A stretch of DNA of 64,000 nt. Source: Odiellus spinosus. Taxonomy: Eukaryota; Arthropoda; Arachnida; Opiliones; Phalangiidae. Made by a program: the position numbers and the translations under genes. Location: the NCBI GenBank assembly GCA_963920705.1, contig CAWUCO010000232.1, positions 124,001 to 188,000 on the forward strand, given 5' to 3'. Below, in pieces: positions 1 through 27,689 of this stretch; the stretch's first letter is position 1, and each line of letters starts with the position of its first letter. Below the pieces are notes generated by a model. It saw only the letters and a list, made by a program, of their open reading frames with translations, ran no database searches and was not told where the DNA came from.

Positions 1-822
1 CTTGGATTTTTAAGCGTTTTTGCTTAATTTTAACCAATTTTATATTTGTCACAATTTTGCAATTTAGACAAAACCAAAGTCATTCGAAAGAGCAATTAAT
101 GGACAGTCTAAATAATAATAGTTTTCAAAAATCCGTTGAAAAACAAGAAAAATATGGCCAATTCAAGAAATCATAGAATATCAAAATAGTCAAATTTCAG
201 ATTTTCAAAATTCGCTTTTTGATATTAGATGTTTTTTGAATTGTCCATATTTTCCATGTTTTTCAACGGATTTTCCAAAACTCTTGATTTTCAGATAGAC
301 CAATATTTGCTCTTTCGAGTGGTCTTAATTTTATCTAAATCGCTTAAAAATCAAAAGTTTTGTGTCCATTTTAATCCAATAATCTTGGATTTTTTAGTGT
401 TTTTGCTTTATTTTAACCAATTTTATATTTGTCACAATTTGGCAATTTAGACAAAACCAAAGTCATTCGAAAGAGCAATTAATGGACAGTCTAAATAACA
501 AGAGTTTTCAAAAATCCGTTGAAAAACAAGAAAAATATGGCCAATTCAAGAAATCATACAATATCAAAATAGTCAAATTTCAGATTTTCAAAATTCGCTT
601 TTTGATATTAGATGCTTTTTGAATTGTCCAGATTTTCCATGTTTTTCAACGGATTTTCCAAAACTCTTGATTTTCAGATAGACCAATATTTGCTCTTTCG
701 AGTGGTCTTAATTTTGTCTAAATCGCTTAAAAATCAAAAGTTTTGTGTCCATTTTAATCCAATAATCTTGGATTTTTAAGTGTTTTTGCTTTATTTTAAC
801 CAATTTTATATTTGTCACAATT
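1..822 (+). repeat. Left-edge monomers (one partial, two full)
   Basis: The window opens inside linker L; the first marks are at 57 and 440. The unit at 57 carries the 'aataataatag' and 'tcatag' variants; the unit at 440 has a g in the mark itself ('ttggcaattt'). The array clearly continues to the left of the window. Confidence 0.9.
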
Positions 823-3503
823 TTGCAATTTAGACAAAACCAAAGTCATACGAAAGAGCAATTAATGGACAGTCTAAATAACAAGAGTTTTCAAAAATCC
901 GTTGAAAAACAAGAAAAATATGGCCAATTCAAGAAATCAAACAATATCAAAATAGTCAAATTTCAGATTTGAAAAATTCGCTTTTTGATATTAGATGTTT
1001 TTTGAACTGTCCATATTTTCCATGTTTTTCAACGGATTTTCCAAAACTCTTGTTTTTTAGATAGACCAATATTTGCTCTTTCGAGTGGTCTTAATTTTGC
1101 CTAAATCGCTTAAAAATCAAAAGTTTTGTGTCCATTTTAATCCAATAATCTTGGATTTTTAAGCGTTTTTGCTTAATTTTAACCAATTTTATATTTGTCA
1201 CAATTTTGCAATTTAGACAAAACCAAAGTCATTCGAAAGAGCAATTAATGGACAGTCTAAATAATAATAGTTTTCAAAAATCCGTTGAAAAACAAGAAAA
1301 ATATGGCCAATTCAAGAAATCATAGAATATCAAAATAGTCAAATTTCAGATTTTAAAAATTCGCTTTTTGATATTAGATGTTTTTTGATTTGGCTATATT
1401 TTCCATGTTTTTCAACGGATTTTCCAAAATTCTTGTTTTTTAGATAGACCAATATTTGCTCTTTCGAGTGGTCTTAATTTTGTCTAAATCGCTTAAAAAT
1501 CAAAAGTTTTGTGTCCATTTTAATCCAATAATCTTGGATTTTTTAGTGTTTTTTCTTTATTTTAACCAATTTTATATTTGTCACAGTTTTGCAATTTAGA
1601 CAAAACCAAAGTCATTCGAAAGAGCAATTAATGGACAGTCTAAATAACAAGAGTTTTCAAAAATCCGTTGAAAAACAAGAAAAATATGGCCAATTCAAGA
1701 AATCATACAATATCAAAATAGTCAAATTTCAGATTTTAAAAATTCGCTTTTTGATATTAGATGTTTTTTGAATTGTCCATATTTTCCATGTTTTTCAACG
1801 GATTTTCCAAAACTCTTGTTTTTTAGATAGACCAATATTTGCTCTTTCGAGTTGTCTTAATTTTGTCTAAATCACTTAAAAATCAAAAGTTTTGTGTCCA
1901 TTTTAATCCAATAATCTTGGATTTTTAAGCGTTTTTGCTTAATTTTAACCAATTTTATATTTGTCACAATTTTGCAATTTAGACAAAACCAAAGTCATTC
2001 GAAAGAGCAATTAATGGACAGTCTAAATAATAAGAGTTTTCAAAAATCCGTTGAAAAACAAGAAAAATATGGCCAATTCAAGAAATCATAGAATATCAAA
2101 ATAGTCAAATTTCAGATTTTCAAAATTCGTTTTTTGATATTAGATGTTTTTTGAATTGTCCATATTTTCCATGTTTTTCAACGGATTTTCCAAAACTCTT
2201 GATTTTCAGATAGACCAATATTTGCTCTTTCGAGTGGTCTTAATTTTGTCTAAATCGCTTAAAAATCAAAAGTTTTGTGTCCATTTGAATCCTATAATCT
2301 CGGATTTTTAAGCGTTTTTGCTTAATTTTAACCAATTTTATATTTGTCACAATTTTGCAATTTAGACAAAACCAAAGTCATTCGAAAGAGCAATTAATGG
2401 ACAGTCTAAATAATAAGAGTTTTCAAAAATCCGTTGAAAAACAAGAAAAATATGGCCAATTCAAGAAATCAAACAATATCAAAATAGTCAAATTTCAGAT
2501 TTGAAAAATTCGCTTTTTGATATTAGATGTTTTTTGAACTGTCCATATTTTCCATGTTTTTCAACGGATTTTCCAAAACTCTTGTTTTTTAGATAGACCA
2601 ATATTTGCTCTTTCGAGTGGTCTTAATTTTGCCTAAATCGCTTAAAAATCAAAAGTTTTGTGTCCATTTTAATCCAATAATCTTGGATTTTTAAGCGTTT
2701 TTGCTTAATTTTAACCAATTTTATATTTGTCACAATTTTGCAATTTAGACAAAACCAAAGTCATTCGAAAGAGCAATTAATGGACAGTCTAAATAATAAT
2801 AGTTTTCAAAAATCCGTTGAAAAACAAGAAAAATATGGCCAATTCAAGAAATCATAGAATATCAAAATAGTCAAATTTCAGATTTTAAAAATTCGCTTTT
2901 TGATATTAGATGTTTTTTGATTTGGCTATATTTTCCATGTTTTTCAACGGATTTTCCAAAATTCTTGTTTTTTAGATAGACCAATATTTGCTCTTTCGAG
3001 TGGTCTTAATTTTGTCTAAATCGCTTAAAAATCAAAAGTTTTGTGTCCATTTTAATCCAATAATCTTGGATTTTTTAGTGTTTTTTCTTTATTTTAACCA
3101 ATTTTATATTTGTCACAGTTTTGCAATTTAGACAAAACCAAAGTCATTCGAAAGAGCAATTAATGGACAGTCTAAATAACAAGAGTTTTCAAAAATCCGT
3201 TGAAAAACAAGAAAAATATGGCCAATTCAAGAAATCATACAATATCAAAATAGTCAAATTTCAGATTTTAAAAATTCGCTTTTTGATATTAGATGTTTTT
3301 TGAATTGTCCATATTTTCCATGTTTTTCAACGGATTTTCCAAAACTCTTGTTTTTTAGATAGACCAATATTTGCTCTTTCGAGTGGTCTTAATTTTGTCT
3401 AAATCGCTTAAAAATCAAAAGTTTTGTGTCCATTTGAATTCTATAATCTTGGATTTTTAAGCGTTTTTGCTTAATTTTAACCAATTTTATATTTGTCACA
3501 ATT
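823..3503 (+). repeat. Partial four-monomer HOR (1532-bp spacing)
   Basis: Monomers at 823, 1206 and 1589 match those at 2355, 2738 and 3121 in order, 1532 bp (4 x 383) apart. Shared rare variants are 'tcaaac' with 'atttgaaaaa' and 'gaactgtcc' (823/2355), 'gatttggct' with 'attcttg' (1206/2738), and 'cacagttttg' before 1589/3121. The fourth position differs (1972 has tcatag, 3504 has tcatac), so the repeat is incomplete. The first unit also differs: 823 has atacg/aacaag, 2355 has attcg/aataag. Confidence 0.75.
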
Positions 3504-3506
3504 TTG

Positions 3507-3614
3507 CAATTTAGACAAAACCAAAGTCATTCGAAAGAGCAATTAATGGACAGTCTAAATAACAAGAGTTTTCAAAAATCCGTTGAAAAACAAGAAAAAT
3601 ATGGCCAATTCAAG
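3507..3614 (+). repeat. Arm 1 of the monomer's inverted repeat
   Basis: 108 bp running from 'caatttagac' to 'ccaattcaag'. Aligned by hand against the reverse complement of 3682-3789, about 87 of 108 bases match without gaps. The longest shared runs are the 18-bp box (3575-3592), a 12-bp run around 'tcgaaagagcaa', a 12-bp run 'atttagacaaaa' and a 10-bp run 'caagagtttt'. The most diverged part is the middle, around 'ttaatggacagtctaaata'. Confidence 0.93.
3575..3592 (+). other. 18-bp box shared by both arms (arm 1 copy)
   Basis: The run aaaatccgttgaaaaaca is identical in arm 1 and, inverted, in arm 2 of the reference unit, and is the longest perfect match between arms that otherwise differ at about one base in five. 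It recurs at the same offset in nearly every monomer. Its left part, tccgttgaaaa, resembles the start of the mammalian CENP-B box, but the cggg end is missing. A protein-binding role is inference only. Confidence 0.5.
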
Positions 3615-3681
3615 AAATCATACAATATCAAAATAGTCAAATTTCAGATTTTAAAAATTCGCTTTTTGATATTAGATGTTT
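3615..3681. repeat. Spacer S with its own 10-bp inverted repeat
   Basis: 67-bp loop between the two arms, about 19% G+C. It holds 'aatatcaaaa' near its left end and the exact inverse 'ttttgatatt' near its right end, about 30 bp apart, so it extends the dyad of the arms. Common variants across the array are tcatac / tcatag / tcaaac / ccatac at the left end, gattttc or gatttta in the middle, and gatgtttt or gatgcttt at the right end. The tag variant puts a stop codon in the frame that otherwise runs through arm 1. Confidence 0.85.
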
Positions 3682-3789
3682 TTTGAATTGTCCATATTTT
3701 CCATGTTTTTCAACGGATTTTCCAAAACTCTTGTTTTTTAGATAGACCAATATTTGCTCTTTCGAGTGGTCTTAATTTTGTCTAAATCG
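3682..3789 (-). repeat. Arm 2 of the monomer's inverted repeat
   Basis: 108 bp from 'tttgaattgtcc' to 'gtctaaatcg', reverse-complement partner of arm 1 at about 81% identity. It is the more variable arm across the array: its first bases occur as gaattgtcc, gaattggct, gaactgtcc, gatttggct and gaattctcc, and its middle as either 'cttgttttttag' or 'cttgattttcag'. These alternatives are the best markers of monomer subfamilies. Confidence 0.93.
3704..3721 (-). other. 18-bp box shared by both arms (arm 2 copy)
   Basis: Exact reverse complement of the arm 1 box at 3575-3592. Subfamilies alter this copy: caacgg becomes caatgg in many units of 44.7-54.5 kb, caaggg in most units after 57.9 kb, and caactg in the five units that begin at 20738, 23773, 30960, 33245 and 35913. 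Confidence 0.5.
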
Positions 3790-3889
3790 CTTAAAAATCA
3801 AAAGTTTTGTGTCCATTTGAATTCTATAATCTTGGATTTTTAAGCGTTTTTGCTTAATTTTAACCAATTTTATATTTGTCACAATTTTG
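3790..3889. repeat. Linker L with a second 10-bp inverted repeat
   Basis: 100 bp joining arm 2 of one unit to arm 1 of the next, about 22% G+C. It begins 'cttaaaaatc' and holds the exact inverse 'gatttttaag' about 40 bp later, giving a second dyad axis per monomer. Variant forms are 'aagcgtttttgcttaatt', 'aagtgtttttgctttatt' and 'ttagtgttttt', plus a form with a 13-bp deletion ('ggattgcttt'). Confidence 0.85.
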
Positions 3890-5801
3890 CAATTTAGACA
3901 AAACCAAAGTCATACGAAAGAGCAATTAATGGACAGTCTAAATAACAAGAGTTTTCAAAAATCCGTTGAAAAACAAGAAAAATATGGCCAATTCAAGAAA
4001 TCATACAATATCAAAATAGTCAAATTTCAGATTTTAAAAATTCGCTTTTTGATATTAGATGCTTTTTGAATTGTCCAGATTTTCCATGTTTTTCAACGGA
4101 TTTTCCAAAACTCTTGATTTTCAGATAGACCAATATTTGCTCTTTCGAGTGGTCTTAATTTTGTCTAAATCGCTTAAAAATCAAAAGTTTTGTGTCCATT
4201 TTAATCCAATAATCTTGGATTTTTAAGTGTTTTTGCTTTATTTTAACCAATTTTATATTTGTCACAATTTTGCAATTTAGACAAAACCAAAGTCATACGA
4301 AAGAGCAATTAATGGACAGTCTAAATAACAAGAGTTTTCAAAAATCCGTTGAAAAACAAGAAAAATATGGCCAATTCAAGAAATCATACAATATCAAAAT
4401 AGTCAAATTTCAGATTTTAAAAATTCGCTTTTTGATATTAGATGCTTTTTGAATTGTCCATATTTTCCATGTTTTTCAACGGATTTTCCAAAACTTTTGT
4501 TTTTTAGATAGACCAATATTTGCTATTTCGAGTGGTCTTAATTTTGTCTAAATCGCTTAAAAATCAAAAGTTTTGTGTCCATTTGAATCCAATAATCTTG
4601 GATTTTTAAGTGTTTTTGCTTTATTTTAACCAATTTTATATTTGTCACAATTTTGCAATTTAGACAAAACCAAAGTCATTCGAAAGAGCAATTAATGGAC
4701 AGTCTAAATAACAAGAGTTTTCAAAAATCCGTTGAAAAACAAGAAAAATATGGCCAATTCAAGAAATCATACAATATCAAAATAGTCAAATTTCAGATTT
4801 TAAAAATTCGCTTTTTGATATTAGATGTTTTTTGAACTGTCCATATTTTCCATGTTTTTCAACGGATTTTCCAAAACTCTTGTTTTTTAGATAGACCAAT
4901 ATTTGCTCTTTCGAGTGGTCTTAATTTTGCCTAAATCGCTTAAAAATCAAAAGTTTTGTGTCCATTTTAATCCAATAATCTTGGATTTTTAAGCGTTTTT
5001 GCTTAATTTTAACCAATTTTATATTTGTCACAATTTTGCAATTTAGACAAAACCAAAGTCATTCGAAAGAGCAATTAATGGACAGTCTAAATAATAAGAG
5101 TTTTCAAAAATCCGTTGAAAAACAAGAAAAATATGGCCAATTCAAGAAATCATAGAATATCAAAATAGTCAAATTTCAGATTTTAAAAATTCGCTTTTTG
5201 ATATTAGATGTTTTTTGAATTGGCTATATTTTCCATGTTTTTCAACGGATTTTCCAAAACTCTTGTTTTTTAGATAGACCAATATTTGCTCTTTTGAGTG
5301 GTCTTAATTTTGTCTAAATCGCTTAAAAATCAAAAGTTTTGTGTCCATTTGAATCCTATAATCTTGGATTTTTAAGCGTTTTTGCTTAATTTTAACCAAT
5401 TTTATATTTGTCACAATTTTGCAATTTAGACAAAACCAAAGTCATTCGAAAGAGCAATTAATGGACAGTCTAAATAACAAGAGTTTTCAAAAATCCGTTG
5501 AAAAACAAGAAAAATATGGCCAATTCAAGAAATCATACAATATCAAAATAGTCAAATTTCAGATTTTCAAAATTCGCTTTTTGATATTAGATGTTTTTTG
5601 AATTGGCTATATTTTCCATGTTTTTCAACGGATTTTCCAAAACTCTTGTTTTTTAGATAGACCAATATTTGCTCTTTCGAGTGGTCTTAATTTTGTCTAA
5701 ATCGCTTAAAAATCAAAAGTTTTGTGTCCATTTTAATCCAATAATCTTGGATTTTTTAGTGTTTTTGCTTTATTTTAACCAATTTTATATTTGTCACAAT
5801 T
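3887..5801 (+). repeat. Five-monomer block B, copy 1
   Basis: Monomers at 3887, 4270, 4653, 5036 and 5419 follow the order: atacg unit ending gattttcag; atacg unit ending aaacttttg; gaactgtcc unit; tcatag unit with cttttgag; gattttc unit. The same order recurs at 13461 and 16908. Copy 1 differs in the last unit (gaattggct and ttttttag, where the others have gaattgtcc and gattttcag) and carries a private change (tgctatttcg) in the second. Confidence 0.75.
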
Positions 5802-6566
5802 TTGCAATTTAGACAAAACCAAAGTCATTCGAAAGAGCAATTAATGGACAGTCTAAATAACAAGAGTTTTCAAAAATCCGTTGAAAAACAAGAAAAATAT
5901 GGCCAATTCAAGAAATCATACAATATCAAAATAGTCAAATTTCAGATTTTAAAAATTCGCTTTTTGATATTAGATGTTTTTTGAATTGTCCATATTTTCC
6001 ATGTTTTTCAACGGATTTTCCAAAACTCTTGTTTCTTATATAGACCAATATTTGCTCTTTCGAGTGGTCTTAATTTTGTCTAAATCGCTTAAAAATCAAA
6101 AGTTTTGTGTCCATTTGAATCCTATAATCTTGGATTTTTAAGCGTTTTTGCTTAATTTTAACCAATTTTATATTTGTCACAATTTTGCAATTTAGACAAA
6201 ACCAAAGTCATTCGAAAGAGCAATTAATGGACAGTCTAAATAACAAGAGTTTTCAAAAATCCGTTGAAAAACAAGAAAAATATGGCCAATTCAAGAAATC
6301 ATACAATATCAAAATAGTCAAATTTCAGATTTTAAAAATTCGCTTTTTGATATTAGATTTTTTTGAATTCTCCATATTTTCCATGTTTTTCAACGGATTT
6401 TCCAAAACTCTTGATTTTCAGATAGACCAATATTTGCTCTTTCGAGTGGTCTTAATTTTGTCTAAATCGCTTAAAAATCAAAAGTTTTGTGTCCATTTGA
6501 ATCCTATAATCTTGGATTTTTAAGTGTTTTTGCTTTATTTTAACCAATTTTATATTTGTCACAATT
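5802..6566 (+). repeat. Two monomers leading into the first inversion
   Basis: The unit at 5802 has a private 'gtttcttatatag' in arm 2. The unit at 6185 has a 1-bp shorter T run ('gatttttttgaattc'), so it is 382 bp; the lost base removes a stop codon and lengthens an open frame to 112 codons from a TTG, which I regard as chance. The same shortened form precedes the second inversion at 26.99 kb. Confidence 0.8.
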
Positions 6567-6676
6567 TTGCAATTTAGACAAAACCAAAGTCATTCGAAAG
6601 AGCAATTAATGGACAGTCTAAATAATAAGAGTTTTCAAAAATCCGTTGAAAAACAAGAAAAATATGGCCAATTCAA

Positions 6677-7020
6677 AAAACATCTAATATCAAAAAGCGA
6701 ATTTTTAAAATCTGAAATTTGACTATTTTGATATTGTATGGTTTCTTGAATTGGCCATATTTTTCTTGTTTTTCAACAGATTTTTGAAAACTCTTATTAT
6801 TTAGACTGTCCATTAATTGCTCTTTCGAATGACTTTGGTTTTGTCTAAATTGCAAAATTGTGACAAATATAAATTTGGTTAAAATAATGCAAAAACACTT
6901 AAAAATCCAAGATTATTGGATTCAAATGGACACAAAACTTTTGATTTTTAAGCGATTTAGACAAAACTAAGACCACTCGAAAGAGCAAATATTGGTCTAT
7001 CTGAAAATCAAGAGTTTTGG
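6677..7020 (-). repeat. Inverted satellite unit 1
   Basis: Within the plus-oriented array this tract reads as the reverse complement: S', then arm 1 inverted (6745-6852), L' (6853-6952), then arm 2 inverted up to 7020. The left junction lies in 'caattcaa' (6669-6676), where arm 1 changes into inverted arm 2. The right junction lies in the 18-bp box (7021-7038), where inverted arm 2 changes back to arm 1. Because the arms are inverted homologues, the 383-bp register is unbroken: marks fall at 6567, 6950 and 7333. A simple flip would leave the same crossover point at both ends; here the points differ, which favours a template switch out and back. Confidence 0.93.
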
Positions 7021-7715
7021 AAAATCCGTTGAAAAACAAGAAAAATATGGCCAATTCAAGAAATCATACAATATCAAAATAGTCAAATTTCAGATTTTCA
7101 AAATTCGCTTTTTGATATTAGATGTTTTTTGAATTGTCCATATTTTCCATGTTTTTCAACGGATTTTCCAAAACTCTTGATTTTCAGATAGACCAATATT
7201 TGCTCTTTCGAGTGGTCTTAATTTTATCTAAATCGCTTAAAAATCAAAAGTTTTGTGTCCATTTTAATCCAATAATCTTGGATTTTTTAGTGTTTTTGCT
7301 TTATTTTAACCAATTTTATATTTGTCACAATTTTGCAATTTAGACAAAACCAAAGTCATTCGAAAGAGCAATTAATGGACAGTCTAAATAACAAGAGTTT
7401 TCAAAAATCCGTTGAAAAACAAGAAAAATATGGCCAATTCAAGAAATCATACAATATCAAAATAGTCAAATTTCAGATTTTCAAAATTCGCTTTTTGATA
7501 TTAGATGTTTTTTGAATTGTCCATATTTTCCATGTTTTTCAACGGATTTTCCAAAACTCTTGTTTTTTAGATAGACCAATATTTGCTCTTTCGAGTGGTC
7601 TTAATTTTGTCTAAATCGCTTAAAAATCAAAAGTTTTGTGTCCATTTTAATCCAATAATCTTGGATTTTTAAGTGTTTTTGCTTTATTTTAACCAATTTT
7701 ATATTTGTCACAATT

Positions 7716-9630
7716 TTGCAATTTAGACAAAACCAAAGTCATACGAAAGAGCAATTAATGGACAGTCTAAATAACAAGAGTTTTCAAAAATCCGTTGAAA
7801 AACAAGAAAAATATGGCCAATTCAAGAAATCATACAATATCAAAATAGTCAAATTTCAGATTATAAAAATTCGCTTTTTGATATTAGATGCTTTTTGAAT
7901 TGTCCATATTTTCCATGTTTTTCAACGGATTTTCCAAAACTTTTGTTTTTTAGATAGACCAATATTTGCTCTTTCGAGTGGTCTTAATTTTGTCTAAATC
8001 GCTTAAAAATCAAAAGTTTTGTGTCCATTTGAATCCAATAATCTTGGATTTTTAAGTGTTTTTGCTTTATTTTAACCAATTTTATATTTGTCACAATTTT
8101 GCAATTTAGACAAAACCAAAGTCATTCGAAAGAGCAATTAATGGACAGTCTAAATAACAAGAGTTTTCAAAAATCCGTTGAAAAACAAGAAAAATATGGC
8201 CAATTCAAGAAATCATACAATATCAAAATAGTCAAATTTCAGATTTTAAAAATTCGCTTTTTGATATTAGATGCTTTTTGAATTGTCCAGATTTTCCATG
8301 TTTTTCAACGGATTTTCCAAAACTCTTGATTTTCAGATAGACCAATATTTGCTCTTTCGAGTGGTCTTAATTTTGTCTAAATCGCTTAAAAATCAAAAGT
8401 TTTGTGTCCATTTTAATCCAATAATCTTGGATTTTTAAGTGTTTTTGCTTTATTTTAACCAATTTTATATTTGTCACAATTTTGCAATTTAGACAAAACC
8501 AAAGTCATACGAAAGAGCAATTAATGGACAGTCTAAATAACAAGAGTTTTCAAAAATCCGTTGAAAAACAAGAAAAATATGGCCAATTCAAGAAATCAAA
8601 CAATATCAAAATAGTCAAATTTCAGATTTGAAAAATTCGCTTTTTGATATTAGATGTTTTTTGAACTGTCCATATTTTCCATGTTTTTCAACGGATTTTC
8701 CAAAACTCTTGTTTTTTAGATAGACCAATATTTGCTCTTTCGAGTGGTCTTAATTTTGCCTAAATCGCTTAAAAATCAAAAGTTTTGTGTCCATTTTAAT
8801 CCAATAATCTTGGATTTTTAAGCGTTTTTGCTTAATTTTAACCAATTTTATATTTGTCACAATTTTGCAATTTAGACAAAACCAAAGTCATTCGAAAGAG
8901 CAATTAATGGACAGTCTAAATAATAATAGTTTTCAAAAATCCGTTGAAAAACAAGAAAAATATGGCCAATTCAAGAAATCATAGAATATCAAAATAGTCA
9001 AATTTCAGATTTTAAAAATTCGCTTTTTGATATTAGATGTTTTTTGAATTGGCTATATTTTCCATGTTTTTCAACGGATTTTCCAAAACTCTTGTTTTTT
9101 AGATAGACCAATATTTGCTCTTTCGAGTGGTCTTAATTTTGTCTAAATCGCTTAAAAATCAAAAGTTTTGTGTCCATTTTAATCCAATAATCTTGGATTT
9201 TTTAGTGTTTTTTCTTTATTTTAACCAATTTTATATTTGTCACAGTTTTGCAATTTAGACAAAACCAAAGTCATTCGAAAGAGCAATTAATGGACAGTCT
9301 AAATAACAAGAGTTTTCAAAAATCCGTTGAAAAACAAGAAAAATATGGCCAATTCAAGAAATCATACAATATCAAAATAGTCAAATTTCAGATTTTAAAA
9401 ATTCGCTTTTTGATATTAGATGTTTTTTGAATTGTCCATATTTTCCATGTTTTTCAACGGATTTTCCAAAACTCTTGTTTTTTAGATAGACCAATATTTG
9501 CTCTTTCGAGTGGTCTTAATTTTGTCTAAATCGCTTAAAAATCAAAAGTTTTGTGTCCATTTTAATCCAATAATCTTGGATTTTTAAGTGTTTTTGCTTT
9601 ATTTTAACCAATTTTATATTTGTCACAATT
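7716..9630 (+). repeat. Five-monomer HOR (1915 bp), copy 1
   Basis: Units at 7716, 8099, 8482, 8865 and 9248. Order of markers: atacg with the rare 'gattataaaa' and aaacttttg; attcg with gatgc and gtccaga; atacg with tcaaac and gaactgtcc; aataataatag with tcatag and gaattggct; cacagttttg with tcatac. The next 1915 bp repeats the order and, as far as I can read, nearly every base. Confidence 0.88.
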
Positions 9631-11545
9631 TTGCAATTTAGACAAAACCAAAGTCATACGAAAGAGCAATTAATGGACAGTCTAAATAACAAGAGTTTTC
9701 AAAAATCCGTTGAAAAACAAGAAAAATATGGCCAATTCAAGAAATCATACAATATCAAAATAGTCAAATTTCAGATTATAAAAATTCGCTTTTTGATATT
9801 AGATGCTTTTTGAATTGTCCATATTTTCCATGTTTTTCAACGGATTTTCCAAAACTTTTGTTTTTTAGATAGACCAATATTTGCTCTTTCGAGTGGTCTT
9901 AATTTTGTCTAAATCGCTTAAAAATCAAAAGTTTTGTGTCCATTTGAATCCAATAATCTTGGATTTTTAAGTGTTTTTGCTTTATTTTAACCAATTTTAT
10001 ATTTGTCACAATTTTGCAATTTAGACAAAACCAAAGTCATTCGAAAGAGCAATTAATGGACAGTCTAAATAACAAGAGTTTTCAAAAATCCGTTGAAAAA
10101 CAAGAAAAATATGGCCAATTCAAGAAATCATACAATATCAAAATAGTCAAATTTCAGATTTTAAAAATTCGCTTTTTGATATTAGATGCTTTTTGAATTG
10201 TCCAGATTTTCCATGTTTTTCAACGGATTTTCCAAAACTCTTGATTTTCAGATAGACCAATATTTGCTCTTTCGAGTGGTCTTAATTTTGTCTAAATCGC
10301 TTAAAAATCAAAAGTTTTGTGTCCATTTTAATCCAATAATCTTGGATTTTTAAGTGTTTTTGCTTTATTTTAACCAATTTTATATTTGTCACAATTTTGC
10401 AATTTAGACAAAACCAAAGTCATACGAAAGAGCAATTAATGGACAGTCTAAATAACAAGAGTTTTCAAAAATCCGTTGAAAAACAAGAAAAATATGGCCA
10501 ATTCAAGAAATCAAACAATATCAAAATAGTCAAATTTCAGATTTGAAAAATTCGCTTTTTGATATTAGATGTTTTTTGAACTGTCCATATTTTCCATGTT
10601 TTTCAACGGATTTTCCAAAACTCTTGTTTTTTAGATAGACCAATATTTGCTCTTTCGAGTGGTCTTAATTTTGCCTAAATCGCTTAAAAATCAAAAGTTT
10701 TGTGTCCATTTTAATCCAATAATCTTGGATTTTTAAGCGTTTTTGCTTAATTTTAACCAATTTTATATTTGTCACAATTTTGCAATTTAGACAAAACCAA
10801 AGTCATTCGAAAGAGCAATTAATGGACAGTCTAAATAATAATAGTTTTCAAAAATCCGTTGAAAAACAAGAAAAATATGGCCAATTCAAGAAATCATAGA
10901 ATATCAAAATAGTCAAATTTCAGATTTTAAAAATTCGCTTTTTGATATTAGATGTTTTTTGAATTGGCTATATTTTCCATGTTTTTCAACGGATTTTCCA
11001 AAACTCTTGTTTTTTAGATAGACCAATATTTGCTCTTTCGAGTGGTCTTAATTTTGTCTAAATCGCTTAAAAATCAAAAGTTTTGTGTCCATTTTAATCC
11101 AATAATCTTGGATTTTTTAGTGTTTTTTCTTTATTTTAACCAATTTTATATTTGTCACAGTTTTGCAATTTAGACAAAACCAAAGTCATTCGAAAGAGCA
11201 ATTAATGGACAGTCTAAATAACAAGAGTTTTCAAAAATCCGTTGAAAAACAAGAAAAATATGGCCAATTCAAGAAATCATACAATATCAAAATAGTCAAA
11301 TTTCAGATTTTAAAAATTCGCTTTTTGATATTAGATGTTTTTTGAATTGTCCATATTTTCCATGTTTTTCAACGGATTTTCCAAAACTCTTGTTTTTTAG
11401 ATAGACCAATATTTGCTCTTTCGAGTGGTCTTAATTTTGTCTAAATCGCTTAAAAATCAAAAGTTTTGTGTCCATTTGAATTCTATAATCTTGGATTTTT
11501 AAGCGTTTTTGCTTAATTTTAACCAATTTTATATTTGTCACAATT
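9631..11545 (+). repeat. Five-monomer HOR (1915 bp), copy 2
   Basis: Units at 9631, 10014, 10397, 10780 and 11163 match 7716-9630 at a constant 1915-bp shift, including the private 'gattataaaa' (7861 region and 9776 region). The last three unit types occur once more at 12312, 12695 and 13078, so a third, broken copy follows. Confidence 0.88.
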
Positions 11546-13460
11546 TTGCAATTTAGACAAAACCAAAGTCATTCGAAAGAGCAATTAATGGACAGTCTAA
11601 ATAACAAGAGTTTTCAAAAATCCGTTGAAAAACAAGAAAAATATGGCCAATTCAAGAAATCATACAATATCAAAATAGTCAAATTTCAGATTTTAAAAAT
11701 TCGCTTTTTGATATTAGATGTTTTTTGAATTGTCCATATTTTCCATGTTTTTCAACGGATTTTCCAAAACTCTTGTTTTTTAGATAGACCAATATTTGCT
11801 CTTTCGAGTGGTCTTAATTTTGTCTAAATCGCTTAAAAATCAAAAGTTTTGTGTCCATTTGAATTCTATAATCTTGGATTTTTAAGCGTTTTTGCTTAAT
11901 TTTAACCAATTTTATATTTGTCACAATTTTGCAATTTAGACAAAACCAAAGTCATACGAAAGAGCAATTAATGGACAGTCTAAATAACAAGAGTTTTCAA
12001 AAATCCGTTGAAAAACAAGAAAAATATGGCCAATTCAAGAAATCATACAATATCAAAATAGTCAAATTTCAGATTTTAAAAATTCGCTTTTTGATATTAG
12101 ATGCTTTTTGAATTGTCCAGATTTTCCATGTTTTTCAACGGATTTTCCAAAACTCTTGATTTTCAGATAGACCAATATTTGCTCTTTCGAGTGGTCTTAA
12201 TTTTGTCTAAATCGCTTAAAAATCAAAAGTTTTGTGTCCATTTTAATCCAATAATCTTGGATTTTTAAGTGTTTTTGCTTTATTTTAACCAATTTTATAT
12301 TTGTCACAATTTTGCAATTTAGACAAAACCAAAGTCATACGAAAGAGCAATTAATGGACAGTCTAAATAACAAGAGTTTTCAAAAATCCGTTGAAAAACA
12401 AGAAAAATATGGCCAATTCAAGAAATCAAACAATATCAAAATAGTCAAATTTCAGATTTGAAAAATTCGCTTTTTGATATTAGATGTTTTTTGAACTGTC
12501 CATATTTTCCATGTTTTTCAACGGATTTTCCAAAACTCTTGTTTTTTAGATAGACCAATATTTGCTCTTTCGAGTGGTCTTAATTTTGCCTAAATCGCTT
12601 AAAAATCAAAAGTTTTGTGTCCATTTTAATCCAATAATCTTGGATTTTTAAGCGTTTTTGCTTAATTTTAACCAATTTTATATTTGTCACAATTTTGCAA
12701 TTTAGACAAAACCAAAGTCATTCGAAAGAGCAATTAATGGACAGTCTAAATAATAATAGTTTTCAAAAATCCGTTGAAAAACAAGAAAAATATGGCCAAT
12801 TCAAGAAATCATAGAATATCAAAATAGTCAAATTTCAGATTTTAAAAATTCGCTTTTTGATATTAGATGTTTTTTGAATTGGCTATATTTTCCATGTTTT
12901 TCAACGGATTTTCCAAAACTCTTGTTTTTTAGATAGACCAATATTTGCTCTTTCGAGTGGTCTTAATTTTGTCTAAATCGCTTAAAAATCAAAAGTTTTG
13001 TGTCCATTTTAATCCAATAATCTTGGATTTTTTAGTGTTTTTTCTTTATTTTAACCAATTTTATATTTGTCACAGTTTTGCAATTTAGACAAAACCAAAG
13101 TCATTCGAAAGAGCAATTAATGGACAGTCTAAATAACAAGAGTTTTCAAAAATCCGTTGAAAAACAAGAAAAATATGGCCAATTCAAGAAATCATACAAT
13201 ATCAAAATAGTCAAATTTCAGATTTTAAAAATTCGCTTTTTGATATTAGATGTTTTTTGAATTGTCCATATTTTCCATGTTTTTCAACGGATTTTCCAAA
13301 ACTCTTGTTTTTTAGATAGACCAATATTTGCTCTTTCGAGTGGTCTTAATTTTGTCTAAATCGCTTAAAAATCAAAAGTTTTGTGTCCATTTGAATTCTA
13401 TAATCTTGGATTTTTAAGCGATTTTGCTTAATTTTAACCAATTTTATATTTGTCACAATT
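11546..13460 (+). repeat. Broken third copy of the five-monomer HOR
   Basis: Units at 11546 and 11929 match units 3504 and 3887 instead of the first two HOR units; units at 12312, 12695 and 13078 match the last three HOR units. The block is therefore a hybrid of the 3.5-4.3 kb order and the 7.7-11.5 kb order, as expected from unequal exchange out of HOR phase. Confidence 0.7.
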
Positions 13461-15375
13461 TTGCAATTTAGACAAAACCAAAGTCATACGAAAGAGCAAT
13501 TAATGGACAGTCTAAATAACAAGAGTTTTCAAAAATCCGTTGAAAAACAAGAAAAATATGGCCAATTCAAGAAATCATACAATATCAAAATAGTCAAATT
13601 TCAGATTTTAAAAATTCGCTTTTTGATATTAGATGCTTTTTGAATTGTCCAGATTTTCCATGTTTTTCAACGGATTTTCCAAAACTCTTGATTTTCAGAT
13701 AGACCAATATTTGCTCTTTCGAGTGGTCTTAATTTTGTCTAAATCGCTTAAAAATCAAAAGTTTTGTGTCCATTTTAATCCAATAATCTTGGATTTTTAA
13801 GTGTTTTTGCTTTATTTTAACCAATTTTATATTTGTCACAATTTTGCAATTTAGACAAAACCAAAGTCATACGAAAGAGCAATTAATGGACAGTCTAAAT
13901 AACAAGAGTTTTCAAAAATCCGTTGAAAAACAAGAAAAATATGGCCAATTCAAGAAATCATACAATATCAAAATAGTCAAATTTCAGATTTTAAAAATTC
14001 GCTTTTTGATATTAGATGCTTTTTGAATTGTCCATATTTTCCATGTTTTTCAACGGATTTTCCAAAACTTTTGTTTTTTAGATAGACCAATATTTGCTCT
14101 TTCGAGTGGTCTTAATTTTGTCTAAATCGCTTAAAAATCAAAAGTTTTGTGTCCATTTGAATCCAATAATCTTGGATTTTTAAGTGTTTTTGCTTTATTT
14201 TAACCAATTTTATATTTGTCACAATTTTGCAATTTAGACAAAACCAAAGTCATTCGAAAGAGCAATTAATGGACAGTCTAAATAACAAGAGTTTTCAAAA
14301 ATCCGTTGAAAAACAAGAAAAATATGGCCAATTCAAGAAATCATACAATATCAAAATAGTCAAATTTCAGATTTTAAAAATTCGCTTTTTGATATTAGAT
14401 GTTTTTTGAACTGTCCATATTTTCCATGTTTTTCAACGGATTTTCCAAAACTCTTGTTTTTTAGATAGACCAATATTTGCTCTTTCGAGTGGTCTTAATT
14501 TTGCCTAAATCGCTTAAAAATCAAAAGTTTTGTGTCCATTTTAATCCAATAATCTTGGATTTTTAAGCGTTTTTGCTTAATTTTAACCAATTTTATATTT
14601 GTCACAATTTTGCAATTTAGACAAAACCAAAGTCATTCGAAAGAGCAATTAATGGACAGTCTAAATAATAAGAGTTTTCAAAAATCCGTTGAAAAACAAG
14701 AAAAATATGGCCAATTCAAGAAATCATAGAATATCAAAATAGTCAAATTTCAGATTTTAAAAATTCGCTTTTTGATATTAGATGTTTTTTGAATTGGCTA
14801 TATTTTCCATGTTTTTCAACGGATTTTCCAAAACTCTTGTTTTTTAGATAGACCAATATTTGCTCTTTTGAGTGGTCTTAATTTTGTCTAAATCGCTTAA
14901 AAATCAAAAGTTTTGTGTCCATTTGAATCCTATAATCTTGGATTTTTAAGCGTTTTTGCTTAATTTTAACCAATTTTATATTTGTCACAATTTTGCAATT
15001 TAGACAAAACCAAAGTCATTCGAAAGAGCAATTAATGGACAGTCTAAATAACAAGAGTTTTCAAAAATCCGTTGAAAAACAAGAAAAATATGGCCAATTC
15101 AAGAAATCATACAATATCAAAATAGTCAAATTTCAGATTTTCAAAATTCGCTTTTTGATATTAGATGTTTTTTGAATTGTCCATATTTTCCATGTTTTTC
15201 AACGGATTTTCCAAAACTCTTGATTTTCAGATAGACCAATATTTGCTCTTTCGAGTGGTCTTAATTTTGTCTAAATCGCTTAAAAATCAAAAGTTTTGTG
15301 TCCATTTTAATCCAATAATCTTGGATTTTTTAGTGTTTTTGCTTTATTTTAACCAATTTTATATTTGTCACAATT
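13461..15375 (+). repeat. Five-monomer block B, copy 2
   Basis: Units at 13461, 13844, 14227, 14610 and 14993 repeat the block B order and match the copy at 16908 at a shift of 3447 bp (9 x 383). The preceding unit at 13078 also matches 16525. A private change marks this copy: 'aagcgattttgctt' near 13420. Confidence 0.78.
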
Positions 15376-16907
15376 TTGCAATTTAGACAAAACCAAAGTC
15401 ATTCGAAAGAGCAATTAATGGACAGTCTAAATAACAAGAGTTTTCAAAAATCCGTTGAAAAACAAGAAAAATATGGCCAATTCAAGAAATCATACAATAT
15501 CAAAATAGTCAAATTTCAGATTTTCAAAATTCGCTTTTTGATATTAGATGTTTTTTGAATTGTCCATATTTTCCATGTTTTTCAACGGATTTTCCAAAAC
15601 TCTTGTTTTTTAGATAGACCAATATTTGCTCTTTCGAGTGGTCTTAATTTTGTCTAAATCGCTTAAAAATCAAAAGTTTTGTGTCCATTTGAATTCAATA
15701 ATCTTGGATTTTTAAGCGTTTTTGCTTTATTTTAACCAATTTTATATTTGTCACAATTTTGCAATTTAGACAAAACCAAAGTCATTCGAAAGAGCAATTA
15801 ATGGACAGTCTAAATAACAAGAGTTTTCAAAAATCCGTTGAAAAACAAGAAAAATATGGCCAATTCAAGAAATCATACAATATCAAAATAGTCAAATTTC
15901 AGATTTTAAAAATTCGCTTTTTGATATTAGATGTTTTTTGAATTGTCCATATTTTCCATGTTTTTCAACGGATTTTCCAAAACTCTTGATTTTCAGATAG
16001 ACCAATGTTTGCTCTTTCGAGTGGTCTTAATTTTGTCTAAATCGCTTAAAAATCAAAAGTTTTGTGTCCATTTTAATCCAATAATCTTGGATTTTTAAGC
16101 GTTTTTGCTTAATTTTAACCAATTTTATATTTGTCACAATTTTGCAATTTAGACAAAACCAAAGTCATTCGAAAGAGCAATTAATGGACAGTCTAAATAA
16201 TAAGAGTTTTCAAAAATCCGTTGAAAAACAAGAAAAATATGGCCAATTCAAGAAATCATAGAATATCAAAATAGTCAAATTTCAGATTTTAAAAATTCGC
16301 TTTTTGATATTAGATGTTTATTAAATTGGCTATATTTTCCATGTTTTTCAACGGATTTTTCAAAACTCTTGTTCTTTAGATAGACCAATATTTGCTCTTT
16401 CGAGTGGTCTTAATTTTGTCTAAATCGCTTAAAAATCAAAAGTTTTGTGTCCATTTGAATTCTATAATCTTGGATTTTTAAGCGTTTTTGCTTAATTTTA
16501 ACCAATTTTATATTTGTCACAATTTTGCAATTTAGACAAAACCAAAGTCATTCGAAAGAGCAATTAATGGACAGTCTAAATAACAAGAGTTTTCAAAAAT
16601 CCGTTGAAAAACAAGAAAAATATGGCCAATTCAAGAAATCATACAATATCAAAATAGTCAAATTTCAGATTTTAAAAATTCGCTTTTTGATATTAGATGT
16701 TTTTTGAATTGTCCATATTTTCCATGTTTTTCAACGGATTTTCCAAAACTCTTGTTTTTTAGATAGACCAATATTTGCTCTTTCGAGTGGTCTTAATTTT
16801 GTCTAAATCGCTTAAAAATCAAAAGTTTTGTGTCCATTTGAATTCTATAATCTTGGATTTTTAAGCGTTTTTGCTTAATTTTAACCAATTTTATATTTGT
16901 CACAATT
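15376..16907 (+). repeat. Four monomers between block B copies
   Basis: Units at 15376, 15759, 16142 and 16525. The unit at 15759 has 'caatgtttgc'. The unit at 16142 has the unusual 'gtttattaaattggct' with 'gttctttag', shared with the unit at 19589; the variant without ttctttag is seen again at 34764. Confidence 0.8.
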
Positions 16908-18822
16908 TTGCAATTTAGACAAAACCAAAGTCATACGAAAGAGCAATTAATGGACAGTCTAAATAACAAGAGTTTTCAAAAATCCGTTGAAAAACAAGAA
17001 AAATATGGCCAATTCAAGAAATCATACAATATCAAAATAGTCAAATTTCAGATTTTAAAAATTCGCTTTTTGATATTAGATGCTTTTTGAATTGTCCAGA
17101 TTTTCCATGTTTTTCAACGGATTTTCCAAAACTCTTGATTTTCAGATAGACCAATATTTGCTCTTTCGAGTGGTCTTAATTTTGTCTAAATCGCTTAAAA
17201 ATCAAAAGTTTTGTGTCCATTTTAATCCAATAATCTTGGATTTTTAAGTGTTTTTGCTTTATTTTAACCAATTTTATATTTGTCACAATTTTGCAATTTA
17301 GACAAAACCAAAGTCATACGAAAGAGCAATTAATGGACAGTCTAAATAACAAGAGTTTTCAAAAATCCGTTGAAAAACAAGAAAAATATGGCCAATTCAA
17401 GAAATCATACAATATCAAAATAGTCAAATTTCAGATTTTAAAAATTCGCTTTTTGATATTAGATGCTTTTTGAATTGTCCATATTTTCCATGTTTTTCAA
17501 CGGATTTTCCAAAACTTTTGTTTTTTAGATAGACCAATATTTGCTCTTTCGAGTGGTCTTAATTTTGTCTAAATCGCTTAAAAATCAAAAGTTTTGTGTC
17601 CATTTGAATCCAATAATCTTGGATTTTTAAGTGTTTTTGCTTTATTTTAACCAATTTTATATTTGTCACAATTTTGCAATTTAGACAAAACCAAAGTCAT
17701 TCGAAAGAGCAATTAATGGACAGTCTAAATAACAAGAGTTTTCAAAAATCCGTTGAAAAACAAGAAAAATATGGCCAATTCAAGAAATCATACAATATCA
17801 AAATAGTCAAATTTCAGATTTTAAAAATTCGCTTTTTGATATTAGATGTTTTTTGAACTGTCCATATTTTCCATGTTTTTCAACGGATTTTCCAAAACTC
17901 TTGTTTTTTAGATAGACCAATATTTGCTCTTTCGAGTGGTCTTAATTTTGCCTAAATCGCTTAAAAATCAAAAGTTTTGTGTCCATTTTAATCCAATAAT
18001 CTTGGATTTTTAAGCGTTTTTGCTTAATTTTAACCAATTTTATATTTGTCACAATTTTGCAATTTAGACAAAACCAAAGTCATTCGAAAGAGCAATTAAT
18101 GGACAGTCTAAATAATAAGAGTTTTCAAAAATCCGTTGAAAAACAAGAAAAATATGGCCAATTCAAGAAATCATAGAATATCAAAATAGTCAAATTTCAG
18201 ATTTTAAAAATTCGCTTTTTGATATTAGATGTTTTTTGAATTGGCTATATTTTCCATGTTTTTCAACGGATTTTCCAAAACTCTTGTTTTTTAGATAGAC
18301 CAATATTTGCTCTTTTGAGTGGTCTTAATTTTGTCTAAATCGCTTAAAAATTAAAAGTTTTGTGTCCATTTGAATCCTATAATCTTGGATTTTTAAGCGT
18401 TTTTGCTTAATTTTAACCAATTTTATATTTGTCACAATTTTGCAATTTAGACAAAACCAAAGTCATTCGAAAGAGCAATTAATGGACAGTCTAAATAACA
18501 AGAGTTTTCAAAAATCCGTTGAAAAACAAGAAAAATATGGCCAATTCAAGAAATCATACAATATCAAAATAGTCAAATTTCAGATTTTCAAAATTCGCTT
18601 TTTGATATTAGATGTTTTTTGAATTGTCCATATTTTCCATGTTTTTCAACGGATTTTCCAAAACTCTTGATTTTCAGATAGACCAATATTTGCTCTTTCG
18701 AGTGGTCTTAATTTTGTCTAAATCGCTTAAAAATCAAAAGTTTTGTGTCCATTTTAATCCAATAATATTGGATTTTTAAGCGTTTTTGCTTAATTTTAAC
18801 CAATTTTATATTTGTCACAATT
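16908..18822 (+). repeat. Five-monomer block B, copy 3
   Basis: Units at 16908, 17291, 17674, 18057 and 18440, 3447 bp after copy 2 and in the same order. Its last two units are also the first copy of the 766-bp dimer that follows. Confidence 0.78.
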
Positions 18823-19588
18823 TTGCAATTTAGACAAAACCAAAGTCATTCGAAAGAGCAATTAATGGACAGTCTAAATAATAAGAGTTTTCAAAAATCC
18901 GTTGAAAAACAAGAAAAATATGGCCAATTCAAGAAATCATAGAATATCAAAATAGTCAAATTTCAGATTTTAAAAATTCGCTTTTTGATATTAGATGTTT
19001 TTTGAATTGGCTATATTTTCCATGTTTTTCAACGGATTTTCCAAAACTCTTGTTTTTTAGATAGACCAATATTTGCTCTTTTGAGTGGTCTTAATTTTGT
19101 CTAAATCGCTTAAAAATTAAAAGTTTTGTGTCCATTTGAATCCTATAATCTTGGATTTTTAAGCGTTTTTGCTTAATTTTAACCAATTTTATATTTGTCA
19201 CAATTTTGCAATTTAGACAAAACCAAAGTCATTCGAAAGAGCAATTAATGGACAGTCTAAATAACAAGAGTTTTCAAAAATCCGTTGAAAAACAAGAAAA
19301 ATATGGCCAATTCAAGAAATCATACAATATCAAAATAGTCAAATTTCAGATTTTCAAAATTCGCTTTTTGATATTAGATGTTTTTTGAATTGTCCATATT
19401 TTCCATGTTTTTCAACGGATTTTCCAAAACTCTTGATTTTCAGATAGACCAATATTTGCTCTTTCGAGTGGTCTTAATTTTGTCTAAATCGCTTAAAAAT
19501 CAAAAGTTTTGTGTCCATTTTAATCCAATAATATTGGATTTTTAAGCGTTTTTGCTTAATTTTAACCAATTTTATATTTGTCACAATT
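18057..19588 (+). repeat. Two-monomer HOR (766 bp), two copies
   Basis: Units 18057+18440 and 18823+19206 are near-identical pairs. Both pairs carry the same private changes: 'cttttgagtgg' and 'aaattaaaag' in the first unit, and 'ataatattgg' in the linker of the second. A third pair begins at 19589 but has the gtttattaaattggct arm. Confidence 0.85.
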
Positions 19589-21490
19589 TTGCAATTTAGA
19601 CAAAACCAAAGTCATTCGAAAGAGCAATTAATGGACAGTCTAAATAATAAGAGTTTTCAAAAATCCGTTGAAAAACAAGAAAAATATGGCCAATTCAAGA
19701 AATCATAGAATATCAAAATAGTCAAATTTCAGATTTTAAAAATTCGCTTTTTGATATTAGATGTTTATTAAATTGGCTATATTTTCCATGTTTTTCAACG
19801 GATTTTTCAAAACTCTTGTTCTTTAGATAGACCAATATTTGCTCTTTCGAGTGGTCTTAATTTTGTCTAAATCGCTTAAAAATCAAAAGTTTTGTGTCCA
19901 TTTGAATCCTATAATCTTGGATTTTTAAGCGTTTTTGCTTAATTTTAACCAATTTTATATTTGTCACAATTTTGCAATTTAGACAAAACCAAAGTCATTC
20001 GAAAGAGCAATTAATGGACAGTCTAAATAATAAGAGTTTTCAAAAATCCGTTGAAAAACAAGAAAAATATGGCCAATTCAAGAAATCATACAATATCAAA
20101 ATAGTCAAATTTCAGATTTTCAAAATTCGCTTTTTGATATTAGATGTTTTTTGAATTGTCCATATTTTCCATGTTTTTCAACGGATTTTTCAAAACTATT
20201 GTTTTTTAGATAGACCAATATTTGCTCTTTCGAGTAGTCTTAATTTTGTCTAAATCGCTTAAAAATCAAAAGTTTTGTGTCCATTTGAATTCAATAATCT
20301 TGGATTTTTAAGTGTTTTTGCTTTATTTTAACCAATTTTATATTTGTCACAATTTTGCAATTTAGACAAAACCAAAGTCATTCGAAAGAGCAATTAATGG
20401 ACAGTCTAAATAACAAGAGTTTTCAAAAATCCGTTGAAAAACAAGAAAAATATGGCCAATTCAAGAAATCATACAATATCAAAATAGTCAAATTTCAGAT
20501 TTTCAAAATTCGCTTTTTGATATTAGATGTTTTTTGAATTGTCCATATTTTCCATGTTTTTCAACGGATTTTCCAAAACTCTTGATTTTCAGTTAGACCA
20601 ATATTTGCTCTTTCGAGTGGTCTTAATTTTGTCTAAATCGCTTAAAAATCAAAAGTTTTGTGTCCATTTTAATCCAATAATCTTGGATTTTTAAGTGTTT
20701 TTGCTTTATTTTAACCAATTTTATATTTGTCACAATTTTGCAATTTAGACAAAACCAAAGTCATTCGAAAGAGCAATTAATGGACAGTCTAAATAACAAG
20801 AGTTTTCAAAAATCCGTTGAAAAAAGAGAAAAATATGGCCAATTCAAGAAATCATACAATATCAAAATAGTCAAATTTCAGATTTTCAAAATTCGCTTTT
20901 TGAAATTAGATGTTTTTTGAATTGTCCATATTTTCCATGTTTTTCAACTGATTTTCCAAAACTCTTGATTTTCAGATAGACCAATATTTGCTCTTTCGAG
21001 TGGTCTTAATTTTGTCTAAATCGCTTAAAAATCAAAAGTTTTGTGTCCATTTTAATCCAATAATCTTGGATTGCTTTATTTTAACCAATTTCATATTTGT
21101 CACAATTTTGCAATTTAGACAAAACCAAAGTCATTCGAAAGAGCAATTAATGGACAGTCTAAATAACAAGAGTTTTCAAAAATCCGTTGAAAAACAAGAA
21201 AAATATGGCCAATTCAAGAAATCATACAATATCAAAATAGTCAAATTTCAGATTTTAAAAATTCGCTTTTTGATATTAGATGTTTTTTGAATTGTCCATA
21301 TTTTCCATGTTTTTCAACGGATTTTCCAAAACTCTTGTTTTTTAGATAGACCAATATTTGCTCTTTCGAGTGGTCTTAATTTTGTCTAAATCGCTTAAAA
21401 ATCAAAAGTTTTGTGTCCATTTGAATCCTATAATCTTGGATTTTTAAGTGTTTTTGCTTTATTTTAACCAATTTTATATTTGTCACAATT
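19589..21490 (+). repeat. Transition into the 20-38 kb family
   Basis: Units at 19589, 19972, 20355, 20738 and 21108. The unit at 19972 introduces 'ttttcaaaactattg' with 'gagtagtc', which recurs at 28.1, 32.7 and 35.4 kb. The unit at 20738 is the first with 'gaaaaaagagaaaa' in arm 1, 'tgaaattag' in S and 'caactgatt' in arm 2, and the first followed by the 13-bp linker deletion (junction near 21072). Confidence 0.8.
21060..21107 (+). repeat. Linker with 13-bp deletion (first of eight)
   Basis: 'cttggattgctttatt' replaces 'cttggatttttaagtgtttttgctttatt', with 'aatttcatattt' always linked. The same form has junctions near 21072, 22589, 24107, 26007, 29775, 31294, 33579 and 36247 and nowhere outside 20-37 kb, so it arose once and was amplified. 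The deletion removes one half of the linker's 10-bp inverted repeat. Confidence 0.9.
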
Positions 21491-26042: not shown

Positions 26043-27190
26043 TTGCAATTTAGACAAAACCTAAGTCATTCGAAAGAGCAATTAATGGACAGTCTAAATA
26101 ACAAGAGTTTTCAAAAATCCGTTGAAAAACAAGAAAAATATGGCCAATTCAAGAAATCATACAATATCAAAATAGTCAAATTTCAGATTTTAAAAATTCG
26201 CTTTTTGATATTAGATGTTTTTTGAATTGTCCATATTTTCCATGTTTTTCAACGGATTTTCCAAAACTCTTGTTTTTTAGATAGACCAATATTTGCTCTT
26301 TCGAGTGGTCTTAATTTTGTCTAAATCGCTTAAAAATCAAAAGTTTTGTGTCCATTTTAATCCAATAATCTTGGATTTTTAAGCGTTTTTGCTTAATTTT
26401 AACCAATTTTATATTTGTCACAATTTTGCAATTTAGACAAAACCAAAGTCATTCGAAAGAGCAATTAATGGACAGTCTAAATAATAAGAGTTTTCAAAAA
26501 TCCGTTGAAAAACAAGAAAAATATGGCCAATTCAAGAAATCATACAATATCAAAATAGTCAAATTTCAGATTTTCAAAATTCGCTTTTTGATATTAGATG
26601 TTTTTTGAATTGTCCATATTTTCCATGTTTTTCAACGGATTTTCCAAAACTCTTGATTTTCAGATAGACCAATATTTGCTCTTTCGAGTGGTCTTAATTT
26701 TGTCTAAATCGCTTAAAAATCAAAAGTTTTGTGTCCATTTTAATCCAACAATCTTGGATTTTTAAGTGTTTTTGCTTTATTTTAACCAATTTTATATTTG
26801 TCACAATTTTGCAATTTAGACAAAACCAAAGTCATTCGAAAGAGCAATTAATGGACAGTCCAAATAACAAGAGTTTTCAAAAATCCGTTGAAAAACAAGA
26901 AAAATATGGCCAATTCAAGAAATCATACAATATCAAAATAGTCAAATTTCAGATTTTAAAAATTCGCTTTTTGATATTAGATTTTTTTGAATTCTCCATA
27001 TTTTCCATGTTTTTCAACGGATTTTCCAAAACTCTTGATTTTCAGATAGACCAATATTTGCTCTTTCGAGTGGTCTTAATTTTGTCTAAATCGCTTAAAA
27101 ATCAAAAGTTTTGTGTCCATTTGAATCCTATAATCTTGGATTTTTAAGTGTTTTTGCTTTATTTTAACCAATTTTATATTTGTCACAATT
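24909..27190 (+). repeat. Six-monomer block C, copy 2
   Basis: Units at 24909, 25292, 25674, 26043, 26426 and 26809, the same order as copy 1. The last unit is a hybrid: it starts with 'cagtccaaat' but ends with the short 'gatttttttgaattc' and leads into inverted unit 2, exactly as the unit at 6185 leads into inverted unit 1. A single change (aataatc to aacaatc, near 26750) opens a longer spurious frame here. Confidence 0.83.
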
Positions 27191-27300
27191 TTGCAATTTA
27201 GACAAAACCAAAGTCATTCGAAAGAGCAATTAATGGACAGTCTAAATAATAAGAGTTTTCAAAAATCCGTTGAAAAACAAGAAAAATATGGCCAATTCAA

Positions 27301-27644: not shown

Positions 27645-27689
27645 AAAATCCGTTGAAAAACAAGAAAAATATGGCCAATTCAAGAAACC

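Follow-up and report, generated by a model that had tools for sequence, protein, structure and literature searches.

In Odiellus spinosus DNA, a 352-bp stretch at 6669-7020 of the window lies inverted inside an array of 383-bp repeats. How this unit came to be turned round is the question addressed here. The window, i.e. the whole stretch of DNA that was analysed, comprises 64,000 nucleotides (C229:124001-188000) of a genome assembly of 443,074,358 bases in 286 contigs. An earlier note on this DNA had proposed that a replication fork at 6669 changed its template in one arm, copied the other strand for about one unit and then returned.

The entire window was recognized by TRF as one 383-bp tandem array. 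The array is AT-rich (26.7% GC), the window contains no open reading frame longer than 183 codons, and its sequence matched no Rfam family and no plasmid or phage; one exact pattern each, searched against viral contigs and prokaryote genomes, gave no match. As a long tandem array of near-identical non-coding units, the window is satellite DNA. In the monomer, two arms alternate with two spacers, a short one (S, about 62 bp) following arm a and a long one (L, about 104 bp) following arm A. Arm A is an imperfect inverted copy of arm a, and each arm measures about 108 bp (consensus 275-382 and 62-170). Laid on its mirror image, the consensus matched at 240 of 383 positions in the best register and at 156 in the next best, and the skeleton a-?-A-?-a-?-A maps onto itself when mirrored. 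The best match of the consensus to the CENP-B box agreed at 7 of 9 core bases (TTTCGAATGACTTTGGT at 286, minus strand), so that no complete core was found in the consensus.

Higher-order repeats in the window were represented by just short shuffled blocks, the longest run being five monomers with at most two differences each. A 13-bp deletion (consensus 220-232) was present in eight monomers (window 21071, 22588, 24106, 26006, 29774, 31293, 33578 and 36246) that flank the second inverted unit on both sides; its recurrence marks duplication of blocks. At 57906-63742, where the window ends on the right, lies a subfamily that has 1-bp indels in common near consensus 62, 155 and 333.

To locate the turning points, the window was decomposed against the consensus by a Viterbi procedure having no preference for the mirror register, and orientation changes were placed at 6669 and 7021. 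Read base by base, the last clear forward base on the left was at offset -11 (offset -1 was ambiguous) and the first clear inverted base at +8, while on the right the last inverted base was at +351 and the sequence was forward again from +370. These readings put the left switch inside 6669-6676 or immediately ahead of it and the right one within 7021-7038; both switches preserve the mirror register. At offset 298, inside the inverted tract, two of the four copies described below had the forward reading. The description in the earlier note (orientation changes in these two blocks, the order arm 1, S', arm 1 inverted, L', arm 2 inverted, S, and junctions inside arm homology with the 383-bp register preserved) was borne out in all these points by the decomposition and the site-by-site reading, and we agree that one simple crossover inversion did not make the unit; that origin was rejected. 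The features are collected in Table 1. Folded as a single strand, the unit was far more stable than its own shuffles (z -26), as was, to a lesser degree, an ordinary stretch (z -12). The left junction (window 6560-7070) forms a nearly perfect hairpin, with -167 kcal/mol vs -101 kcal/mol for an ordinary stretch of equal length.

Table 1. Coordinates of the array, the inverted units and the parts of the unit at 6669 (window positions)
Feature	Position	Strand	Remark	Basis
383-bp satellite array	1..64000	+	almost all head-to-tail; S 163 forward/4 reverse, L 164/4	TRF, decomposition, k-mer counts
Inverted unit 1 (the finding)	6669..7020	-		decomposition, site-by-site reading
Inverted unit 2	27293..27644	-	followed by a 46-bp deletion at 27710	
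Inverted unit 3	54768..55119	-		decomposition
Inverted unit 4	55534..55885	-	two monomers past unit 3	
Left switch block CAATTCAA, 8 bp	6669..6676	+	common to both arms; within the second switch zone of the sampled arrays	
Right switch block, 18-bp box AAAATCCGTTGAAAAACA	7021..7038	+	common to both arms; main switch zone of the sampled arrays	
Recombinant arm	6572..6679	+	arm 1 to inverted arm 2 near its S end	
Short spacer S, inverted	6680..6741	-		
Middle arm	6742..6850	-	arm 1 inverted, without arm 2 patch at two strict sites	
Long spacer L, inverted	6851..6954	-		
Recombinant arm	6955..7062	+	inverted arm 2 to arm 1 in the 18-bp box	

The unit at 6669 is not a one-off: the eight orientation changes found in the 64 kb by Viterbi decomposition are two for each of four 352-bp tracts, and the same unit with the same junctions was also present at 27293, 54768 and 55534. 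The left junction occurred in the window four times exactly and at 87 places with at most one mismatch, because ordinary arms are close to it in sequence; the right junction occurred four times with at most one mismatch, and shuffled sequences gave no match to either. Units 6669 and 27293 were identical across the inverted tract and the preceding monomer, and this pair differed from the pair 54768/55534 by five fixed differences. All four units had in common a five-site haplotype whose combination was absent from the 137 forward tracts of the window that were compared (tracts with indels were left out). The four units are copies of one older unit, with some divergence since. With this shared descent, a read artefact becomes less likely and no fork event is needed here. 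Within the window, seven of eight segregating sites of the four units were private, and the corresponding value for 1,000 control quartets was 4%. The idea that the inverted unit is isolated from exchange was dropped, as it holds for the window alone and close relatives exist in other arrays, e.g. on C47. In the sampled arrays the nearest relatives of the unit's parts were on C47, C104 and C197, with 0-4 differences over 162-250 bp (counted to the nearest of the four units, among 69 matches with full flanks).

Copies of the unit were also found outside the window. A 501-base query spanning both junctions matched at 95-100% at all 40 places scored among 1,235 first-look candidates; 38 of the 40 are on 14 other contigs (95-97%), and each of the 40 covers at least 480 of the 501 bases. 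A plain reversed stretch of the consensus would match just 450 of them. Six of the 38 were decomposed, and in every case an inverted S-L unit was flanked by two switches; four had the window's two switch blocks, and in two both switches were in the 18-bp box. A genome search for a junction, as suggested in the earlier note, was run with a 29-mer of the left junction and returned 10,852 exact copies (4,992 and 5,860 on the two strands; 0 for the reversed control). A 39-mer of the right junction returned 1,320 (633 and 687; control 0). In the 18 sampled stretches described below, the 29-mer marked a true orientation switch at 49 of 53 non-edge matches and the 39-mer at 14 of 16 (edge matches left out were 2 of 55 for the left junction and 2 of 121 for the reciprocal one). 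The 29-mer is not always a junction: in a dispersed transposon copy it is an ordinary arm variant.

These copies bear directly on the proposed fork. Template switching at 6669 would account for one continuous tract, for the inverted-template bases in the middle arm and for two different switch points on the mirror register, and the unit does have two switches in arm homology around an inverted spacer; switching between the arms of inverted repeats is known to invert spacers and to homogenise the arms (PMC8604942). Against it stand the fourfold presence of the identical unit in the window, the same two switch blocks on other contigs, and the close relatives of the tract and its flank in other arrays. 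As an event at this locus, the fork is therefore unlikely. The part of the proposal that may stand concerns the founding exchanges, which could have been crossovers, conversions or template switches, the last being possible. Synthesis and breakage with crossover give the same final sequence; for a single event, the middle arm agrees better with continuous copying than with two crossovers.

To see how spacers are oriented in other arrays, twenty 10-kb stretches (L021-L040) were fetched and decomposed, and 18 of them, on 11 contigs, were counted; L026 (no satellite) and L032 (part satellite) were left out. Thirteen of the 18 had been placed on listed matches to the unit or a junction (L021 and L027 among them), and five (L022, L024, L025, L028 and L030, on C6 and C112) at round coordinates without a listed match. 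S and L alternated with two exceptions, and both lay in either direction: forward and reverse counts were 226/243 for S and 208/266 for L. Model-free raw k-mer counts were 210/229 and 182/239, compared with 160/4 and 148/2 in the window, which is the least mixed array seen. The five unmatched stretches showed a like mix (S 60/71, L 59/71), with 114 recombinant arms among 256, and the other thirteen had 257 among 667. Mixing was lower in L033, with 4 recombinant arms, and in L031, with 9. The orientation changes by single slots in most stretches; L alone was turned in 34 triplets and S alone in 68, and single-spacer flips were also read directly in L018.

Some further regularities were observed in these stretches. 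S tended to alternate, the next S having the same orientation in 34% of cases (n=451) and the second-next in 60% (n=433), and L had no such lag-1 pattern. The alternation of S is beyond chance and is not predicted by random flipping; perhaps it comes from amplification of a 766-bp dimer. In L021 a jump from consensus 197 to 154 on the minus strand, with about 42 bases missing, recurred at 1678, 3933, 5422 and 7676.

The positions of the switches were highly regular. Of 386 orientation changes in the 18 stretches, 385 fell within 2 bases of the mirror register between the arms (the count omits 7 same-strand jumps), and with equal penalties, which give the register no advantage, the figure was 101 of 101 in four stretches. 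The 923 arms counted, which omit arms between same-kind slots (2) or far-apart slots, comprised 552 parental (276 + 276) and 371 recombinant ones (186 + 185). In 279 of the 371 the switch was in the 18-bp box and in 52 it was in 362-379; among the identical blocks of 12 bp, 327-338 had 12 switches, 297-308 had 2 and the third none singly, and the remaining recombinant arms had other or several switches. Of the window's two junctions, the right one is of the most frequent recombinant class (157 of 371), the left one of the third most frequent (50 of 371). The two different breakpoints of the unit are two common recombinant arm types.

The focus on one box invites the explanation that a recombinase or nicking protein acts there and flips the spacers, since block length alone predicts a share of 23-38% for the box, well below the 279 of 371 observed. 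No special constraint on the box was seen, however, its conservation ranking 56 and 78 among 365 windows, and 52 arms switch in 362-379 instead; moreover, copying of founders can yield a like picture. The focus may be founder history, with copies representing non-independent events, and we consider site-specific inversion quite improbable. Two simple in-place crossover inversions at 6669, one of S and one of L, are made thinkable by the single-spacer flips counted above, but the middle arm would then contain a 31-bp patch that comes from the other arm. Two strict sites are diagnostic for this patch, and the inverted base was found in all four copies at one and in three of four at the other (the fourth had neither base), and even though later conversion could have erased the patch, such an origin is very improbable. 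Finally, inverted joins in satellite arrays are a known type of artefact, but an assembly error or fold-back read chimera is scarcely credible for four copies that have the same junctions and yet five fixed differences between pairs, in a genome with more than 10,000 exact junction 29-mers.

The spacer haplotypes suggest that turning happened more than once. All haplotypes with at least six copies were found in both orientations (S 4/4, L 5/5), and linkage between L and S was near zero (mean r2 0.007-0.039 for four L and two S sites, compared with 0.50 within L). Since exchange between arms of the same direction cannot turn a spacer on its chromosome, we infer that inversions have recurred. 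Common haplotypes with at least six copies in one 10-kb stretch were present in both orientations in 43 of 44 cases, the random expectation being 43.5, those with 2-5 copies per stretch in 26 of 49, below the 37.2 expected, and rare haplotypes found in one stretch in 8 of 48, where random orientation predicts 28.5. Orientation mixing lags behind local copying.

Six of the eight rare two-way haplotypes lay in mirrored blocks of L022, L033 and L035, as judged from their contexts. Of the other two, the one in L035 had a mirrored context on just one side, and that in L028 kept the order of its neighbours with the pieces turned. Five of the eight are one base away from a common haplotype, and for these five recurrent mutation is possible. 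The alignments of the mirrored blocks measured 2.39 kb (96.5%), 2.27 kb (96.4%) and 0.96 kb (98.4%), with the other listed alignments at 79-92%. In four of five well-marked runs no flips were found between recent direct duplicates, and the fifth was a self-comparison.

The repeat is also present in a dispersed element. Palindromic copies of about 5.5 kb, with ends GGCTCCGTCAACTTGG..., were found at C3:23305487-23311007 (L045, L013, L046) and C5:7088625-7094145 (L047, L015, L048). Each is bounded by a perfect 9-bp target-site duplication, of different sequence on C3 and on C5, the flanks are unrelated, and the inverted halves are long; these are the hallmarks of a foldback transposon. The halves carry 383-bp monomers, mostly head-to-tail. 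Over 3,029 bp of their middle parts the copies show 99.97% identity, which suggests that the element moved recently. Element-related sequence was also seen on C1, C2, C4 and C5 (L009-L012, L014, L016, L017). The candidate identification of the element's centre with the window's left junction was dropped: the 29-mer is an ordinary arm variant there, and the turning point is elsewhere, off the mirror register.

Taking all this into account, the unit at 6669 is probably one copy of a genome-wide, orientation-switched monomer type in an orientation-scrambled satellite. Exchange of any arm a with any arm A would invert what lies between them and leave the period, the arm order and the alternation of spacers intact; in an ordinary satellite, such inversions would break the register. 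As the mirror skeleton keeps its period and order through every opposed-arm exchange, inversions could accumulate whatever number of units they span. Exchanges of this sort, whether inversions or inverted duplications, with sizes between about one unit and 2 kb or more, would flip S and L until old variants occur both ways, and unequal exchange and amplification would then copy flipped units within and between arrays. In the window, a reversed monomer stretch would have entered a mostly head-to-tail array by copying and increased to four copies, the two recombinant arm types that bound it having presumably been made in separate exchanges. As a copied recombinant unit explains the finding, no local event is needed. 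Weighing against this scheme are the absence of flips between recent direct duplicates, the shortfall of two-way haplotypes at 2-5 copies per stretch, the alternation of S, the chance that the sharp switch zone stems from a few founders, and the placing of thirteen of the 18 stretches on listed matches. A stronger version, in which the array scrambles itself by continual turning aimed at the 18-bp box, with large heterochromatin blocks kept near 1:1 and perhaps with selection for alternating S and long hairpins, appears doubtful to us.

The usual picture of a satellite array is head-to-tail, and mirrored subarrays count as exceptions. Here, monomer pieces lie both ways at near 1:1 in a fixed skeleton, which records inversions as point mutations record time. 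With rare variants mostly one-way and common variants both ways, the inversion rate and the site of exchange in satellite DNA become measurable from an assembly. The repeat period alone can hide heavy rearrangement.

Segments between inverted repeats that occur in both orientations are familiar from the flip-flop isomers of chloroplasts and herpesviruses and from bacterial shufflons, where one or a few segments are turned by way of long repeats or a dedicated enzyme. The present case differs from these in being a tandem satellite with imperfect arms of about 108 bp. For spacers within satellite monomers, no description of both orientations was found in the literature searched, in which subscription journals were thinly covered. 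A search for 383-bp satellites led to HSR1 of hop (PMC12406709), which came up by its length; the KpnI site (GGTACC) that is a feature of HSR1 is absent from the window.

The foldback element resembles Tetris/TIR-220 of Drosophila virilis, whose foldback terminal inverted repeats carry a satellite-forming repeat (PMC4079207); orientation-scrambled arrays distinguish the 383-bp repeat from that system. It is also like the TCAST elements of Tribolium castaneum, in which satellite monomers are part of dispersed elements with terminal inverted repeats and target-site duplications, but those are at most 1,181 bp long and have a 3-bp duplication (PMC3411249), in contrast to about 5.5 kb and 9 bp here.

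In yeast, template switching between the arms of inverted repeats inverts the spacer and homogenises the arms, and the unit at 6669 is similar in its inverted spacer and in switch points inside the arms; the yeast cases involve short arms at single sites in genes (PMC8604942), whereas the arms of about 108 bp described here run through large satellite contigs. A close parallel is provided by the macro-dyads of Tribolium, documented in that genus only according to the authors who describe them: TmSat1 and TmSat2 of T. madens show mirror symmetry at the level of arrays with conserved, widely copied inversion sites, and the TmSat2 monomer also has a large internal inverted repeat (PMC13081366). 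The 383-bp satellite likewise changes orientation at conserved sites, nearly always on one register and mostly in one box. In Tribolium the mirroring involves entire subarrays of kb size, as a rule two in an array, and the subunits at the inversion sites have diverged (PMC13081366). Here, inverted blocks of 0.96-2.39 kb were seen in three stretches, and most stretches change orientation in single slots. Unlike in Tribolium, single spacers within the monomer lie both ways in the sampled arrays of the 383-bp satellite, while the arm skeleton stays fixed.
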